Source of the DNA: Caulobacter sp. BP25
GTDB lineage: Bacteria; Pseudomonadota; Alphaproteobacteria; Caulobacterales; Caulobacteraceae
Length of the DNA: 64,000 nt
Direction of reading: 5' to 3'
Assembly: GCF_002737755.1 (NCBI RefSeq)
Contig: NZ_PEGH01000004.1
Location: forward strand, 186,001 to 250,000
The position numbers were made by a program, and so were the translations under genes. The notes below the pieces were generated by a model. The model made no database searches and was not told the origin of the DNA. It worked only from the letters and a program-made list of their open reading frames with translations. Below are positions 2,835 through 42,526 of the stretch, one piece after another (within the stretch, counting starts at the first letter, position 1; every line of letters begins with the position of its first letter).

Positions 2835-3221
2835 ATGGCCCGCCGCGTCGCCCTCGTCTCCCTGCTTGTCGCCGACTATGACGAGGCGATCGCCTTCTAT
2901 GTCGGCAAGCTGGGTTTCGACCTGGTCGAGGACACCGACATGGGCGGCGGCAAACGCTGGGTCGTCGTGTCGCCTGGAACCGACGGAACGAACTTCCTAC
3001 TCGCCCGGGCCAGCGGCGATCAGGCCGAGGCGATCGGCCGCCAAGGCGGCGGCCGGGTGTGGCTGTTCCTGCATACGGACGACTTCGCTGGCGACCATGC
3101 GCGGATGAGCGCCGCCAGTGTGAAGTTCTTGGAAGAACCTCGCCACGAAGCCTACGGTGCGGTGGCGGTGTTCGAGGATCTCTACGGAAACCGTTGGGAC
3201 CTTCTCCAGCCCGGGGCTTAA
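2835..3221 (+). CDS. VOC (glyoxalase/bleomycin-resistance) superfamily protein
   Basis: A protein of about 128 residues with a single VOC beta-alpha-beta-beta-beta unit pair: VSLLVADYDEAIAFYVGKLGF at the start and VFEDLYGNRWDLLQ at the end. The ATG at 2835 is preferred over the one at 2811 because AAGGA lies eight bases upstream and the fold begins straight after it. VOC enzymes bind a metal and act on glyoxal adducts, dioxygenase substrates or antibiotics; the specific substrate is unknown. It sits 8 bp before the ThuA gene and is probably cotranscribed. Confidence 0.8.
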   Translation: MARRVALVSLLVADYDEAIAFYVGKLGFDLVEDTDMGGGKRWVVVSPGTDGTNFLLARASGDQAEAIGRQGGGRVWLFLHTDDFAGDHARMSAASVKFLEEPRHEAYGAVAVFEDLYGNRWDLLQPGA

Positions 3222-37800: not shown

Positions 37801-40275
37801 TCAGTTGGCTGGGCAGACCGCGTCGCCCTCGTTGGAGGCCAGCCGGATCTCCGTGAAGGTCATGGACATGCGGCCGGAGGTCATGAGCGCGAACGGTGCG
37901 GTCACCCGCGCCATATCCGCGCCCTTTGCCTTGAAACAGGACAGTTTGATCTTGGCCGTACGCCATTCGCCGATTTTCGCACCTGAAAACGTTGACGTTA
38001 CGTCTACCGTCGCCCCGCAGGATTCGCCACAGCCGATGGCCATCGAGACGGGTTTCTCTGGGGAAGCATCGACGCGGTAACGGAGCATCACGGCCATGTC
38101 GCCCGTGGTCTGACGCGACAGGTCGACGGGCCGGCCGGACACGCCAAGCAGCCCCTGCCCCTCCCCGGTCCAAACCGCCTGGCGAGCATTCTCTTGCGCG
38201 CCAGCGTCGATCGCCTTGGTGGTGACGGCGCCGGAGGTGGTCAGAAGCCATGGCGCCGGCGCGCGGCCGGCGATGAAATAACGGTCTACATTCGTGGCCG
38301 CCGCCGACGTCACGCCGGACTCCTCAGACAGCACGGCCACCTTGCCCGGCTTGGCGTAGCTCAGGCCATAGCCATAGGCGAACAGCGGGTCATAGCCCTT
38401 GTCGCCGACATTGATCGGCTCCTGGTCGGCGCGCTTGGGCCACGAGAACGACAGCTTGCCCTTGAAGTCGAAGCGCGGCTTGCCGGCCTTGTCGCCGATC
38501 AGAACGTCCGCGACCCCGCCACCTTCCGAGCCCGGCAACCACGCCGCCACGAAGGCGTCGGACGCATTGATCTCGGGATTGGTCCAAAGCGGGCGACCGC
38601 TCAGGAACACCGACACCACCGGGATTCCCTGGGCCTTCAGCTTCTTCAGCAAGGCCAGATCGGTCTTGTCGCCCGGCTGGTACTCGGCCGTGGCGATGTC
38701 GCCCTGGAACTCGGCGTAGGGGTTCTCGCCGAAGACGACGATCGCGACATCGGGCTTTTGCTTGTAGTCGCCCGAGACCGACAGCTCGGCGCTGCCGCCG
38801 CCGGCCTTCACGGCCTCGGCGATCCCGCCGAAGATCGACTGGCCGTTCGGGAAGTCGCTGTTCTTGTTGCCCGTACCCTGCCAGGTCAGGGTCCAGCCGC
38901 CAGAGGCCTTGCCGATGTCGTCGGCGCCGTCGCCGGCCACCAGCACCCGCGCCGAGCTCTTCAGCGGCAGCACGCCTTCGTTCTTGAGCAAAACGAGCGA
39001 CTTGCGGACCGCCTCGCGCGCGATCGCCCGGTGCTCGGGCGCGCCCAGCAACTCAAGCTTGCCTTCCAGCGGACGCTTGTTCTCGAACAGGCCCGCCTTG
39101 ACCTTAACACGCAGGATACGGCGGACGGCGTCGTCGATCCGCGCCATCGGGATCTGACCAGCCTTCACCTGGGCCAACGTATTGTCATAGAGGCCCTTCC
39201 AGCTGTCGGGGGCCATCATCATGTCCATGCCGGCGTTGTAGGCCTGGGCGCAGCTGGTGTTGGTGCAACCCTCGACCTGGCCGTGGGCGTTCCAGTCGCC
39301 GACCACAAAGCCCTCGAAGCCCAGGCGGCCTTTCAGCACGTCGGTCAGCAGGCCCTTGTTGCCGGTATGCTTGACGCCATTCCAGCTGGAGAACGAGACC
39401 ATCACCGACAGGATGCCGGCTTCGATCGCGGGCGGGTAGCCGGCGTTGTGCAGGCGGATCAGCTCGGCCTCGGGCAACTGAGCGTCGCCCTGGTCCTTGC
39501 CGCCGTCCGTGCCGCCATCGCCCAGGAAGTGCTTGGCCGAACCGGCGATGTGGCCGGTCGCCAAGGGCTTGCCTGCGACCAGAGCGCCTTGCAGGCCCAG
39601 CGTCATCGGACCGGCATAGGTCTTCACCACCTCCGGATCCTCGGCATAGCCCTCATAGGTACGGCCCCAGCGCACGTCGCGCGGCACAGCCACGGTCGGT
39701 CCAAAGGTCCAGTCGGCGCCGGTGGCCGCCATTTCCTTGGCGGTCGCCTCGCCGATGCGGCGGATCAGGTCGGGATCGCGCGCAGCGCCCAGGCCGATGT
39801 TGTGCGGAAAGATCGTCGCGCCAACGACATTGTTATGGCCGTGGACCGCGTCCACGCCGAAGATGATCGGGATTTCCTGGTGGCCGCCGCGGCTCTCCAG
39901 GGCCGCCGCGCGAAAGGCGTTGGTCCACTCGATCCAACGCTGGGCCGAGGCCCGGTCATTGCCGTCTGGCGCGCTGTTGCCGCCCACCAGAACTGAGCCC
40001 AAGCGGTACTTCTTAAGCTCCTCCGGCGTGATCGACGCACCGTCGGCTTGGATCGTCTGAGCGACCTTATCCTCGACGCTCATCTGGCCCATCAACTGGG
40101 TGACGAAAGCCTCGGCTTTGGCGTCGGTAATAGTCGCCGGGCTGGAGGTCTTCGGCCACAGCTCAGGATGAGTGGTCGCAGCGCCCGAAGGCGTCTGGGC
40201 CAGCACAGCTCCCGAAAATCCACCGGCGATCGCCAAGGCCAGGAAGGAAACACGAAGGGAGCGACGCGAAAACAT
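37801..40275 (-). CDS. bglX: Secreted GH3 beta-glucosidase (BglX-like)
   Basis: An 824-residue glycoside hydrolase family 3 enzyme. A signal peptide (VSFLALAIAGGFSGAVLAQ) precedes the catalytic barrel, whose nucleophile is the Asp of GFVVGDWNAHGQ (about residue 326). The second domain has SLVLLKNEGVLPLKSS and VFLSGRPLWTNPE. The last 160 residues form an extra beta domain, possibly sugar-binding. It would release glucose from cellobiose or laminaribiose in the periplasm. A LacI-type operator lies over its promoter, and a leader ORF plus terminator lie between promoter and start. Confidence 0.93.
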   Translation of the reverse strand: MFSRRSLRVSFLALAIAGGFSGAVLAQTPSGAATTHPELWPKTSSPATITDAKAEAFVTQLMGQMSVEDKVAQTIQADGASITPEELKKYRLGSVLVGGNSAPDGNDRASAQRWIEWTNAFRAAALESRGGHQEIPIIFGVDAVHGHNNVVGATIFPHNIGLGAARDPDLIRRIGEATAKEMAATGADWTFGPTVAVPRDVRWGRTYEGYAEDPEVVKTYAGPMTLGLQGALVAGKPLATGHIAGSAKHFLGDGGTDGGKDQGDAQLPEAELIRLHNAGYPPAIEAGILSVMVSFSSWNGVKHTGNKGLLTDVLKGRLGFEGFVVGDWNAHGQVEGCTNTSCAQAYNAGMDMMMAPDSWKGLYDNTLAQVKAGQIPMARIDDAVRRILRVKVKAGLFENKRPLEGKLELLGAPEHRAIAREAVRKSLVLLKNEGVLPLKSSARVLVAGDGADDIGKASGGWTLTWQGTGNKNSDFPNGQSIFGGIAEAVKAGGGSAELSVSGDYKQKPDVAIVVFGENPYAEFQGDIATAEYQPGDKTDLALLKKLKAQGIPVVSVFLSGRPLWTNPEINASDAFVAAWLPGSEGGGVADVLIGDKAGKPRFDFKGKLSFSWPKRADQEPINVGDKGYDPLFAYGYGLSYAKPGKVAVLSEESGVTSAAATNVDRYFIAGRAPAPWLLTTSGAVTTKAIDAGAQENARQAVWTGEGQGLLGVSGRPVDLSRQTTGDMAVMLRYRVDASPEKPVSMAIGCGESCGATVDVTSTFSGAKIGEWRTAKIKLSCFKAKGADMARVTAPFALMTSGRMSMTFTEIRLASNEGDAVCPAN

Positions 40276-40313
40276 AGGCGGTCCTCGAAGGCCTCTAAAA
40301 AGGCGACTGATCT

Positions 40314-40360
40314 GAAAGAAAAGCGCTCGGCGCGGCGCTTGCGGGGAACCGCGCCGAGCG
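40314..40360 (-). terminator. Strong intrinsic terminator in the bglX leader
   Basis: On the minus strand CGCTCGGCGCGG pairs with CCGCGCCGAGCG (12 bp) around a 13-base loop and is followed by CTTTTCTTTC. It stands between the leader ORF and the bglX start, so bglX requires read-through or an antiterminating fold. Confidence 0.75.
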
Positions 40361-40371
40361 AAAGAAAGCGG

Positions 40372-40449
40372 CTAGAAACACCGCTTGGAGGGGAGTGATC
40401 GTGCGCGCAGGACGGCGCGACGGGCGCTGGACTGGCCAGGCGAGGTCAT
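40372..40449 (-). CDS. 25-residue leader peptide candidate upstream of bglX
   Basis: The ATG at 40449 has AGGAGG seven bases upstream, the best ribosome binding site in this region. The peptide is basic: five Arg, one Lys, ending SLPSKRCF. Its stop codon falls in the loop of a small hairpin (AAGCGG/CCGCTT, 40366-40386), and the terminator follows 11 bases later. It lies downstream of the TTGACA promoter that carries the LacI-type operator. The geometry suggests a cis-acting leader; a functional small protein is the alternative. Confidence 0.55.
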   Translation of the reverse strand: MTSPGQSSARRAVLRARSLPSKRCF

Positions 40450-40502
40450 GGCGTTTCCTCCTGACGCCGCCTTTCCGTGGGCGTCCGTCTTGATCACGGG
40501 TG

Positions 40503-40531
40503 ATCTCATGTTGAACGGACAGCGCTGTCAA
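40503..40531 (-). promoter_or_regulatory. bglX promoter with LacI-type operator over the -35 box
   Basis: On the minus strand a consensus TTGACA (40526-40531) is 17 bp from TGAGAT (40503-40508). The 14-bp palindrome TGACAGCGCTGTCC (40517-40530) overlaps the -35, so a bound repressor would block RNA polymerase. Confidence 0.7.
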
Positions 40532-40565
40532 GAATAATCTGAATCTCGTCCGTCTATTTATCGCA

Positions 40566-41585
40566 CTAACCGGGCGCCTTGCCGGTGGACTCCCGGACGA
40601 CGAGCTCGAAATCCAGTAGCCGGGACGGCGGCGGATCACCCTCCTCATGCTGGACGCCGCTCATCAACATATCCGCCGCCGCAGCGGCCATGGCGGCGAT
40701 CGGCTGCCTGACTGTCGTCAGCTGGGGCCAGGTGATCCGCGCTCCGGGCGTGTCGTCGAACCCCGCGATCGACAACTGGGCCGGGACGTCCAGCCGCATG
40801 CGGTTGGCGACGGCCATGACCCCCAGCGCCATGTCGTCGTTGGAGGCGAAGATCGCGGTGGGTCGGTCGGCTCCGCCAAGCAAGCGTTCGGCGGCCTCGA
40901 AACCCGAGCGGAACGAGAACCACCCCTGCTCCACCCGATCCTGGCGCACGGGCAGGTCCGCGTCGCGCATGGCGTCCACGAAACCTTGATGTCGCCGCGC
41001 CGAGGCGCCGTGATCGGGGTGCCCAATGATGAATCCGATGTCTCGATGACCCAGGCCGATCAGGTGGTTGGTCATCTCATAGGCGGCCTCGCGGTCGTCC
41101 ATGCTGACCCAGGGGGCACGCTCGACGTCGTCGCCCGGGGCGATGCGGACATAGGCGACACCCTCGCGCTCAAGGGCGTCCAGCACCACCGGGTGGTCGC
41201 TGAGCGGCGGCGTCAAGATCACTCCATCCATGCGTAAGGTCGCCAGCATCGGGGCGACCTGATCTTCGACGTCGCTCGTGGAGTCGATCGGCTCGACAAT
41301 CAGGTGGTAGCCCTCCTGCCGGCAGCGCGAGATCGCCCCCAGCTGCACGTCGGTGACGTAGCCGGGGCTGGGATTGTCGAAGAAAACGCCGATCAGATAG
41401 GCCTTCGCGCCAGCGAGGCTGCGGGCCGAGATATTGGGCCGATAGTTCAAAGCGGCCACCGCCGCCTGCACCCGATCGCGCGTATCGGCCTTGACGTTGG
41501 GCTCGCGATTGAGGACCCGCGAGACGGTCTTGATCGAAACGCCGCTCTCGCGGGCCACGTCGTGGATCGTGATCTTGGCGCTCAA
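40566..41585 (-). CDS. LacI-family transcriptional regulator, probably of bglX and the ED operon
   Basis: A regulator of about 339 residues. The HTH plus hinge, ITIHDVARESGVSIKTVSRV and NISARSLAGAK, is followed by a periplasmic-binding-like sensor domain. The frame remains open to 41834, but that would place the operator at 41631-41650 inside the gene, so the TTG at 41585 (GGGGACGGAA upstream) or the GTG at 41597 is the likely start. Operators with the same core occur before zwf, bglX and this gene. The inducer is probably glucose, a phosphorylated sugar or a glucoside (inferred). Confidence 0.88.
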   Translation of the reverse strand: MSAKITIHDVARESGVSIKTVSRVLNREPNVKADTRDRVQAAVAALNYRPNISARSLAGAKAYLIGVFFDNPSPGYVTDVQLGAISRCRQEGYHLIVEPIDSTSDVEDQVAPMLATLRMDGVILTPPLSDHPVVLDALEREGVAYVRIAPGDDVERAPWVSMDDREAAYEMTNHLIGLGHRDIGFIIGHPDHGASARRHQGFVDAMRDADLPVRQDRVEQGWFSFRSGFEAAERLLGGADRPTAIFASNDDMALGVMAVANRMRLDVPAQLSIAGFDDTPGARITWPQLTTVRQPIAAMAAAAADMLMSGVQHEEGDPPPSRLLDFELVVRESTGKAPG

Positions 41586-41630
41586 TTCCGTCCCCACCGC
41601 CCCGATTCGTTCGGTTTGGCGCGTACTTAG

Positions 41631-41650
41631 CCATGACAAGGCTGTCATGG
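41631..41650. promoter_or_regulatory. Operator upstream of the lacI-type gene (autoregulation)
   Basis: CCATGACAAGGCTGTCATGG is a 20-bp palindrome with mismatches only at its centre. Upstream on the minus strand TTGATG and CATAAA are 18 bp apart, so the palindrome would sit just downstream of the -10. Confidence 0.65.
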
Positions 41651-41758
41651 CGATCCCTTTATGCCCCTCCCCTTCGGCGAGCATCAACGGCGCTTCTAAC
41701 TCAAAAATTGACGATCTATCATCCCTCGAGGCCCTTTTCGGCCGCTTAGGGGGTATCT

Positions 41759-42526
41759 GTGCGAAATTGGAGAAACTTGGTCGTAACGGCCATGCTTGGC
41801 GCCCTGTGGGCGAATTCGGCTGAGGCTCAGGCAACGACGGATCTGGCCAAGCGGCTAGACCAAATCGGCTACCACATGGGCCGGGGCCCGAGCTGCGGTG
41901 AGTTTGGGTTCAAGGTTCACGGGGAAAATGTCGGCGCGATGGCCGGTGAAGTCATCGCGGACGCCATGGGCAAAGGGTTCTCGGAAGATCTCGCCGTTGG
42001 TCGCCTTACGAACGCCAGGGACAGGGGCATGCAGGAATTTGAACAGGAAATGGAGCAGATGACGGCGTTCGACATGAGCGACGAAGCCCGTTTCGCCGAA
42101 AACACTCGAAGAGGCGTGGAGAAAATCGTCAAATCCTGTCGAGCGATCGCGAAGGATCCCGTGACCCGCGTGCTCGTCGAGAACCCGTCGGTCAGCGACG
42201 AGGACTTGGTGCGCGAACTCTCGGACGAGATGCTCGCGCCCGCCGGCCTAGCCAGCTGGCAGACGCCCTATATCCGGGCTGGTGGCGATATGATCAGGGC
42301 CGTCACCTACTGCGCCGCTTACCTGACCCGCCCTCAATCGGACGCCTATGTCGCGGAACTGTACGCGCCAAGCCGCTTTCCGGCGGGCGTGCGCAACAAG
42401 GCCGTGGCCTATTTCGACCAATTGAAGCGGCGAGCGCCGCGAAACAGCGGCAACAGCAGGTTCGACGCGACGGAGTGCAAAGGCATGCTAGCCCGCGACG
42501 CGGAGGCGCTTAAGGCGGCTCGCTAA
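41759..42526 (+). CDS. Secreted hypothetical protein
   Basis: A 255-residue protein starting at a GTG (41759) with AGGGGG upstream and a signal peptide (LVVTAMLGALWANSAEAQ). The mature part is helical, with five cysteines, including one in GPSCGEFGF and one near the C-terminus (ATECKG). No family is recognised. It diverges from the lacI-type gene, so the intergenic operator could affect it as well, and it is convergent with glk. Confidence 0.6.
   Translation: MRNWRNLVVTAMLGALWANSAEAQATTDLAKRLDQIGYHMGRGPSCGEFGFKVHGENVGAMAGEVIADAMGKGFSEDLAVGRLTNARDRGMQEFEQEMEQMTAFDMSDEARFAENTRRGVEKIVKSCRAIAKDPVTRVLVENPSVSDEDLVRELSDEMLAPAGLASWQTPYIRAGGDMIRAVTYCAAYLTRPQSDAYVAELYAPSRFPAGVRNKAVAYFDQLKRRAPRNSGNSRFDATECKGMLARDAEALKAAR

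Follow-up and report, generated by a model that had tools for sequence, protein, structure and literature searches.

A lineage-bound, structured leader RNA with an in-frame small open reading frame before a bglX-like gene in Caulobacter

Introduction

How is a glycoside hydrolase gene controlled when a putative repressor operator, a small open reading frame (ORF) and a terminator-like hairpin are stacked in front of it? The question is raised by a stretch of 64,000 nucleotides from Caulobacter sp. BP25, called the window here, which corresponds to G000:C4:186001-250000 in a host genome of 4,285,115 bases and 20 contigs. The earlier note on this DNA read the layout as translation-coupled attenuation before bglX; of that interpretation a conserved leader architecture stands, whereas attenuation of the classical, trp-like kind is not supported. 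What is solidly delineated is a new, lineage-bound, structured leader RNA with an in-frame ORF before bglX. The element, its fold, its in-frame ORF and the identity of 12 of its nucleotides with the RNA CrfA are established by comparison of sequences. No prior description of this bglX leader is found among the literature matches listed, a coverage outside which subscription journals mostly lie.

The locus

Genes on the minus strand follow the order 6-phosphogluconolactonase-like, Edd/IlvD-type dehydratase, glucokinase, LacI-family regulator, leader, bglX-like GH3 glycosidase and pyruvate kinase. Among named contigs, the best relatives of bglX belong to Caulobacter. The main features are these:

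40566..41834, minus strand: LacI-family regulator (Pfam PF00356, PF13377)
40518..40531, minus strand: putative LacI-type operator TTGACAGCGCTGTC, a palindrome that overlaps the -35 hexamer TTGACA (40526-40531)
40503..40508, minus strand: candidate -10 box TGAGAT, at a 17-nt spacer from TTGACA
40372..40449, minus strand: leader ORF of 25 codons, MTSPGQSSARRAVLRARSLPSKRCF, from ATG at 40449 to TAG at 40372
40366..40386, minus strand: H1, predicted hairpin enclosing the stop codon, with a U-rich tail
40314..40360, minus strand: T2, intrinsic-terminator-like hairpin of 12 bp (arms 40360-40349 and 40335-40324), with a U-rich tail
37801..40275, minus strand: bglX-like GH3 glycosidase with ExoP_C, 824 aa (Pfam PF00933, PF01915, PF18559)

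The start of bglX is at 40275, and its product carries the GH3 N and C domains together with ExoP_C. The true start of the LacI-family ORF probably lies inside the frame listed here, the HTH being found from residue 89. All the elements described earlier (operator, TTGACA, ORF, AGGAGG, stop hairpin and terminator hairpin) were found again on the minus strand at the positions given for them: the palindrome (40531-40518) does cover TTGACA (40531-40526), the 25-codon ORF is there with AGGAGG at 40462-40457 ahead of its ATG, H1 (40386-40366) encloses the TAG, and the 12-bp stem is complementary at 12 of 12 positions and followed by CTTTTCTTTC.

A 24-mer of the leader, searched with up to three mismatches, is present once in each of 20 of the 75 genomes of the genus, the reversed pattern used as a control being found in none of the 75. 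All 20 copies stand directly before a bglX relative.

A putative repressor site over the promoter

The sequence TTGACAGCGCTGTC is read as an operator because it is palindromic and a gene of the LacI family is adjacent. The operator is found in all 20 leaders, 35-36 nt ahead of the junction RNA described below; in the host genome TTGACAGCGCTGTC has a single exact copy, with seven more sites at one mismatch (three for the reversed control). A palindromic operator overlapping a promoter, with a LacI gene nearby, is the layout of a LacI-regulated promoter, at which binding of the repressor is predicted. TGAGAT is found at the 17-nt spacing in 15 leaders, and different hexamers take its place in the remaining five. 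The leader promoter is absent from the output of a simple promoter scan of 4 kb because TGAGAT is far from TATAAT. Upstream of the operator, a second conserved motif, TGTTACCG then mostly NAATCAT, is seen in 12 leaders; GGTACCGCAATCAT replaces TGTTACCG in two more, and the motif is missing in six, including the window and its closest kin G003, G072 and G089.

An ORF kept in frame

Relatives bear out the ORF, which is in frame upstream of bglX in 20 of 20 leaders. In each, an ATG follows GGAGG, and the frame ends at the same place with TAG, TGA or TAA, one or two codons past a conserved SKR or SRR. A further in-frame ATG at 40509 overlaps the -10 box. The length from ATG to CGATCA (39 to 123 nt) is a multiple of three in all 20 while the untranslated part of the leader varies (44-47 nt), and this preservation of the frame argues for translation. 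Two leaders, G030 (L154) and G032 (L149), have insertions with palindromic parts inside the ORF that make it 51 and 75-81 nt longer than in their kin, with the frame kept.

The encoded peptide had been described as Arg-rich and ending in RCF; it does end so, but this ending is private to the window genome, other leader peptides ending in KRP, KRT, KRYL, KRRL, KRS, KRA or RRS. RCF was dropped as a conserved part after a scan for ORFs ending in CF before bglX in 80 loci gave three matches in two loci, none of them like the leader ORF (the scan presupposed a gene at position 3001, so that a few loci were read at the wrong place). Within the seven codons CGA TCA CTC CCC TCC AAG CGG, five are invariant in all 20 leaders; the three changes seen (CTC to AAC, CTC to ATC and AAG to AGG) each alter the amino acid, and the GCA that precedes this stretch becomes GCG, silently, in two leaders. 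As far as the alignment tells, this last stretch of the ORF is constrained at base level. Another frame, of 32 codons on the plus strand (40395-40493) behind an SD-like GGAGGGG, was rejected: it is not kept, its lengths in relatives differing by non-multiples of three.

The junction RNA

The leader is predicted to fold into a multi-helix junction with the following parts:

40381..40495, minus strand: junction RNA, model R1, with helices PA, PB, PC and PD (RNAalifold, 20 leaders)
40492..40495, minus strand: 5' strand of PA, GATC (3' strand 40397-40400), invariant, its pairing thus untestable by variation
40480..40489, minus strand: 5' strand of PB (3' strand 40419-40427, in the ORF), with a double change, GC to AU, at one pair, seen in 5 of 16 distinct rows
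40439..40471, minus strand: PD hairpin (arms 40462-40471 and 40439-40448), all cells paired, its loop containing the SD and the alphaR8-complementary site
40450..40461, minus strand: GGAGGAAACGCC, SD core and spacer in the PD loop, perfect complement of alphaR8 GGCGUUUCCUCC and identical to the CrfA site
40403..40418, minus strand: PC hairpin, in the ORF (arms 40415-40418 and 40403-40406), with double changes at two pairs, one seen in 3 and the other in 1 of 16 distinct rows
40387..40395, minus strand: CUCCCCUCC, C-rich and predicted single-stranded, with an unpaired probability of 1.0 per base

In the RNAalifold architecture PA closes the junction, PD sits at the tip of PB and PC makes a second arm; the C-rich stretch, H1 and T2 follow. 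Folded alone, the window leader has the same junction in its lowest-energy fold, at -81 kcal/mol; shuffled sequences average -67.6 (z -2.91), and 2 of 200 of them fold as low. The model R1 was built from 18 of the 20 leaders, G030 and G032 being excluded for their ORF insertions and both recovered by search. Over these 18 (16 distinct), mean column identity is 90% in 116 columns, and 99.4% of 480 cells pair, possible SD/CCUCC pairing being counted, against 28.0-45.5% when slid. Double changes affect three pairs, in 9 cells. Of 500 shuffles, 14 attain three double-changed pairs and none attains either 9 cells or the covariation score, the structure having been derived from the very alignment on which covariation was scored. 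Further standard pair types are not in excess (10 versus 11.3 in shuffles). Judged by genome sharing, independent compensatory events are few, about three to four, the double change of PB belonging to one clade, and in PD variation is one-sided at five of nine pairs and two-sided at none. PB and PC fall in codons of the ORF, and some amino-acid replacements (R to C, A to T) accompany pairing; the codons CCC and TCC of CUCCCCUCC are invariant in the 20 leaders. A pseudoknot of GGAGG (the SD) with CCUCC would pair in 97.5% of cells, with zero compensatory changes. An early 5' hairpin, P1 (GACG/CGTC), tried as an alternative to PB, is broken in 5 of 16 distinct rows with no compensation and was rejected.

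As a covariance model, R1 returns the same 20 genomes at E <= 1.2e-9. At E up to 1 it gives weak matches in 12 further genomes of the genus, taken for chance, and at E <= 0.01 nothing outside the genus among 390 genomes of the family, with filters that lose weak matches. One weak match, at G022:C12:502449-502554 (L208, E 0.0033), is away from the bglX places listed for G022. None of the Rfam models reaches its cut-off on the leader locus (L145). Likewise, no known Rfam riboswitch or leader is above gathering in 39500-42000, where two matches (E 0.24 and 0.49, below gathering) fall outside the leader.

Hairpins and the antiterminator question

Both hairpins hold across relatives. T2 is kept in 20 of 20 leaders, pairing in 100% of 240 cells with one pair changed on both sides; H1 is predicted in 20 of 20, with the stop codon always inside it, 9-14 nt ahead of T2. 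A simple terminator scan of 4 kb found 2 candidates versus 2.6 expected and saw T2 merely as a 6-pair stem. The antiterminator once proposed, GCGCCG of the ORF with CGGCGC of T2, is present in its two parts but not as a conserved pairing: it shows no two-sided changes, 11 of 100 cells are broken, two of its six pairs meet gaps in 10 of 20 sequences, and the GCGCCG bases covary instead with the local stem PC. When folding was predicted for transcripts cut off ahead of the right arm of T2, the left arm in the free leader had a mean upstream pairing probability of 0.00-0.22 in 16 of 20 and of 0.38-0.55 in four (G082, G090, G097 and G071); placing a ribosome on the stop codon gives values of 0.00-0.01 in 19 and 0.17 in G077. 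As a shared feature this antiterminator is rejected, its pairing being broken without compensation and the left arm of T2 mostly unpaired upstream. In these predictions, upstream pairing of that arm may be a minority feature and not a shared one.

Known control systems offer partial counterparts. Antitermination of the bgl type (BglG/LicT with RAT) also has a terminator before a beta-glucoside gene, and the bglX leader has a terminator-like hairpin at that place. A BglG/RAT system is nonetheless rejected: the CAT_RBD antiterminator has 0 matches in the host genome (control matches in 4 of 14 named genomes), and the RAT motif has 0 in the window at up to three mismatches. With attenuators of the trp/ilv type the leader shares an ORF, in frame in all 20, hairpins and a predicted terminator, T2, behind that ORF. 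It differs from them in lacking both control codons, there being no run of codons for a regulating amino acid in the leader peptides, and a conserved antiterminator, since no pairing with the terminator arm holds across the 20 leaders. Attenuation in cis is kept as a candidate reading because attenuation by a leader ORF is reported for the Caulobacter ilv operon in the accessible text of PMC4117421.

A site shared with CrfA

According to the accessible text of PMC12559287, the C. crescentus sRNAs SisA-D, of the alphaR8 family, have a common single-stranded core, UUUCCUCCCU, with an anti-Shine-Dalgarno signature; CrfA, induced by carbon starvation, is a sponge of alphaR8 sRNAs, its GA-rich stem loop being the verified binding site in C. 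crescentus. The same source places alphaR8 sRNAs in nearly all orders of Alphaproteobacteria and links them to carbon use in Caulobacter; its main text contains neither 'glucosidase' nor 'CCNA_021'. The host genome has four alphaR8 (mmgR/Sis) genes (RF00519; 64.6, 61.2, 55.9 and 45.5 bits) and CrfA (RF01527, 160 bits). On the leader locus, neither the CrfA model (RF01527) nor that of alphaR8 / suhB-mmgR (RF00519) has a match at E <= 1. What the leader has in common with CrfA is the identical GGAGGAAACGCC in the sense strand, placed in CrfA within the GA-rich hairpin; it differs by its ORF, its LacI-type operator and the bglX downstream.

This 12-nt identity was found by looking and had not been predicted beforehand. 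The 4.29-Mb host genome contains six copies of GGAGGAAACGCC: opposite the four alphaR8 genes, in CrfA and in the leader; at one mismatch there are 36 sites versus 20 for the reversed control. As a sponge site should, the leader site is complementary to alphaR8 at 12 of 12 positions, for a predicted duplex of -24.7 and an opening cost of 4.3 kcal/mol. The predicted interaction (local score with opening cost) reaches -20.4 kcal/mol with the leader and -19.8 with CrfA. None of 600 host windows is as low, though these background windows were drawn from host loci fetched for near matches and do not sample the genome at random. Four of the nine bases GGAGGAAAC, among them the leading two Gs of the site, are mostly engaged in pairs in the fold predicted for the window leader (unpaired probability 0.02-0.14), and the opening cost reflects this. 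The PD loop is the best alphaR8 site in all 20 leaders, at -15.8 to -22.7 in 19 and -8.6 in G077, and it lies below all 12 of its own shuffles in 19 of 20, that of G077 being no better than shuffles. A site below all 12 shuffles is found in 13 of 25 other leaders. Compared as whole molecules with RNAduplex, leader and alphaR8 give values that 29-35% of shuffles reach.

Twelve of the 20 leaders retain the complete 12-mer. In 12 others of the 20 genomes there are 87 exact copies, against two of the reversed control: 50 opposite alphaR8 (assigned by Rfam or by core match), 10 in CrfA, 11 in the leader, 10 elsewhere and 6 not classified (G066, G071). Those elsewhere comprise one before TTG, six with no nearby start codon and three directly before the ATG of other genes (two in G027, one in G066), which counts against the reading preferred below. 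The exact 15-nt alphaR8 core is found in 68 of the 75 genomes of the genus and in 59 of the 60 of good quality. At L333 (G027:C1:4636840-4637340), an open frame has the same 12-mer as its ribosome-binding site, behind a ACAACGTTGTC stretch.

Taken together, these sequences make it likely that the leader pairs with alphaR8 sRNAs. The site equals that of CrfA but is a good Shine-Dalgarno sequence as well; since the alphaR8 core has an anti-SD signature, partial pairing with it is a property of any strong SD, and this weighs against specific pairing.

Palindromes of the LacI type are also seen upstream of alphaR8 genes at L254 (G000:C6 ~98817) and L249 (G000:C4 ~326841). One gene has the perfect palindrome GACAACGTTGTC just upstream, and a second has GTTAGCGCTATC, with two mismatches to its own complement. 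The loose scan behind these two gave two more palindromes, GC-rich and chance-like.

Other bglX leaders

A subset of the listed bglX relatives provided 31 further upstream regions from the genus. An operator-like palindrome is present in 30, G036 being the exception; a custom scan finds a terminator-like hairpin between palindrome and gene in 24, and a regular expression finds a GA-rich motif in 22. G083, G024, G009, G013 and the second copy of G097 have a short leader with neither motif nor hairpin, and G062 has the motif and no hairpin by scan. Twenty related leaders carry GGAGGAGAC, AGGAGGAA, GGGAGGAA, GGGAAGGAA or GGGAAGGGAA: 14 have no close ATG, GTG or TTG, five have TTG and one has ATG; two more, with GGGAGGCC, have ATG. 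Hairpin and GA-rich motif are kept more widely than the start codon. Two loci, L186 (a second bglX copy, in G020) and L188 (G004), have the different palindrome GACAACGTTGTC, a terminator-like hairpin and an ATG behind GGGAGGCC. Longer bglX leaders are seen at L134, L136-L140 and L169-L180, with the GA-rich motif, CCCCTCC-like stretches, inner palindromes and strong terminator-like hairpins.

Weighing the explanations

The reading that we prefer, tentatively and with a probability slightly short of even, is that of a LacI-controlled, prematurely terminated leader that pairs with alphaR8 as a target, a sponge or both, bglX being expressed by read-through. As we infer it, transcription would start once the bound repressor is released, and polymerase would make a leader RNA of about 180 nt; part of the transcripts would end at T2, the remainder reading through into bglX. 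The leader would fold as the multi-helix junction, its PD loop presenting GGAGGAAACGCC, at once the SD region of the 25-codon ORF and the complement of the alphaR8 core. Pairing of alphaR8 sRNAs with this loop would block the ORF, while terminated leader, once released, would titrate them in the manner of CrfA. Precedents exist in E. coli: in the accessible text of PMC7815308, ChiZ (from chiP) and IspZ (from ispU) are sponges derived from 5'-UTRs, the former through Rho-dependent termination and the latter probably through intrinsic termination. The bglX leader resembles them as a gene leader, here with predicted premature termination, that carries a site for pairing with an sRNA, and ChiZ, like it, belongs to sugar use (same text); it differs by its structured junction and in-frame small ORF, and its sponging is putative. 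A sponge is favoured over a plain target because of the terminator-like hairpin, the GA-rich motifs without start codon in related leaders and the ChiZ/IspZ precedent. A more elaborate version, in which leader released at T2 titrates alphaR8 as a sugar-gated sponge and has its 12-nt site contested by the ribosome that translates its ORF, is unlikely as it stands.

The same ORF could instead act in cis, its translation setting read-through into bglX by refolding of junction, H1 and T2. The frame kept in 20 of 20 leaders, with its multiple-of-three spacing beside an untranslated part of 44-47 nt, speaks for such an attenuator, as do the stop codon always within H1 at its short distance from T2, the hairpin that stays with bglX in 24 of 31 further regions, and a degree of upstream pairing by the left arm of T2 in four of 20. 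Against it stand the want of a shared antiterminator and of a regulatory codon run, a peptide end that is not conserved, and leaders of other lineages that mostly keep the terminator without a start codon behind the GA motif; we regard it as somewhat unlikely. Should the locus be a LacI-controlled sRNA gene whose CCCCUCC seed blocks SD sites in trans, as alphaR8 does, the ORF being a second function or a passenger, one would understand why CUCCCCUCC is predicted fully unpaired between junction and H1, why the codons around it are either invariant or changed with the amino acid, and why a terminator-like hairpin ends the RNA. But the seed complements 35 sites at up to two mismatches versus 27 for the reversed control, and among 20 sites examined, one being the leader itself, two before ATG and four before GTG (frames of at least 60 codons), there is no convincing case; with attachment to bglX in 20 of 20 as well, this reading is distinctly unlikely.

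Two others fare worse. An ordinary partial terminator with a spurious ORF, conserved through close kinship, would fit a distribution in one genus, where some of the paired changes arose once and were passed on within a clade; the identity of 90% with changes that keep pairs, and indels in frame in 20 of 20, make this very unlikely. A riboswitch-like leader, with T2 governed by a junction that senses a sugar or metabolite, would account for a compact junction with many invariant bases outside helices, but no Rfam family reaches the cut-off, the predictions give no common alternative fold in which T2 is open, and the 20 genomes belong to a single genus: the probability is slighter still.

What the leader may mean

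The leader RNA, supported by covariation, is outside all models of Rfam 15 and adds a small ORF with codons bound by RNA pairing. If its pairing is real, a second identical 12-nt site, this time in the leader of a sugar operon, would tie a specific sugar repressor to the alphaR8 hub. Were the contest with the ribosome true, a ribosome translating the ORF would inactivate the sponge and open up the junction, the LacI-type palindromes by two alphaR8 genes, one perfect and one imperfect, could close a circuit from sugar to sRNA, and supply of sugar and translation would jointly set the activity of alphaR8.
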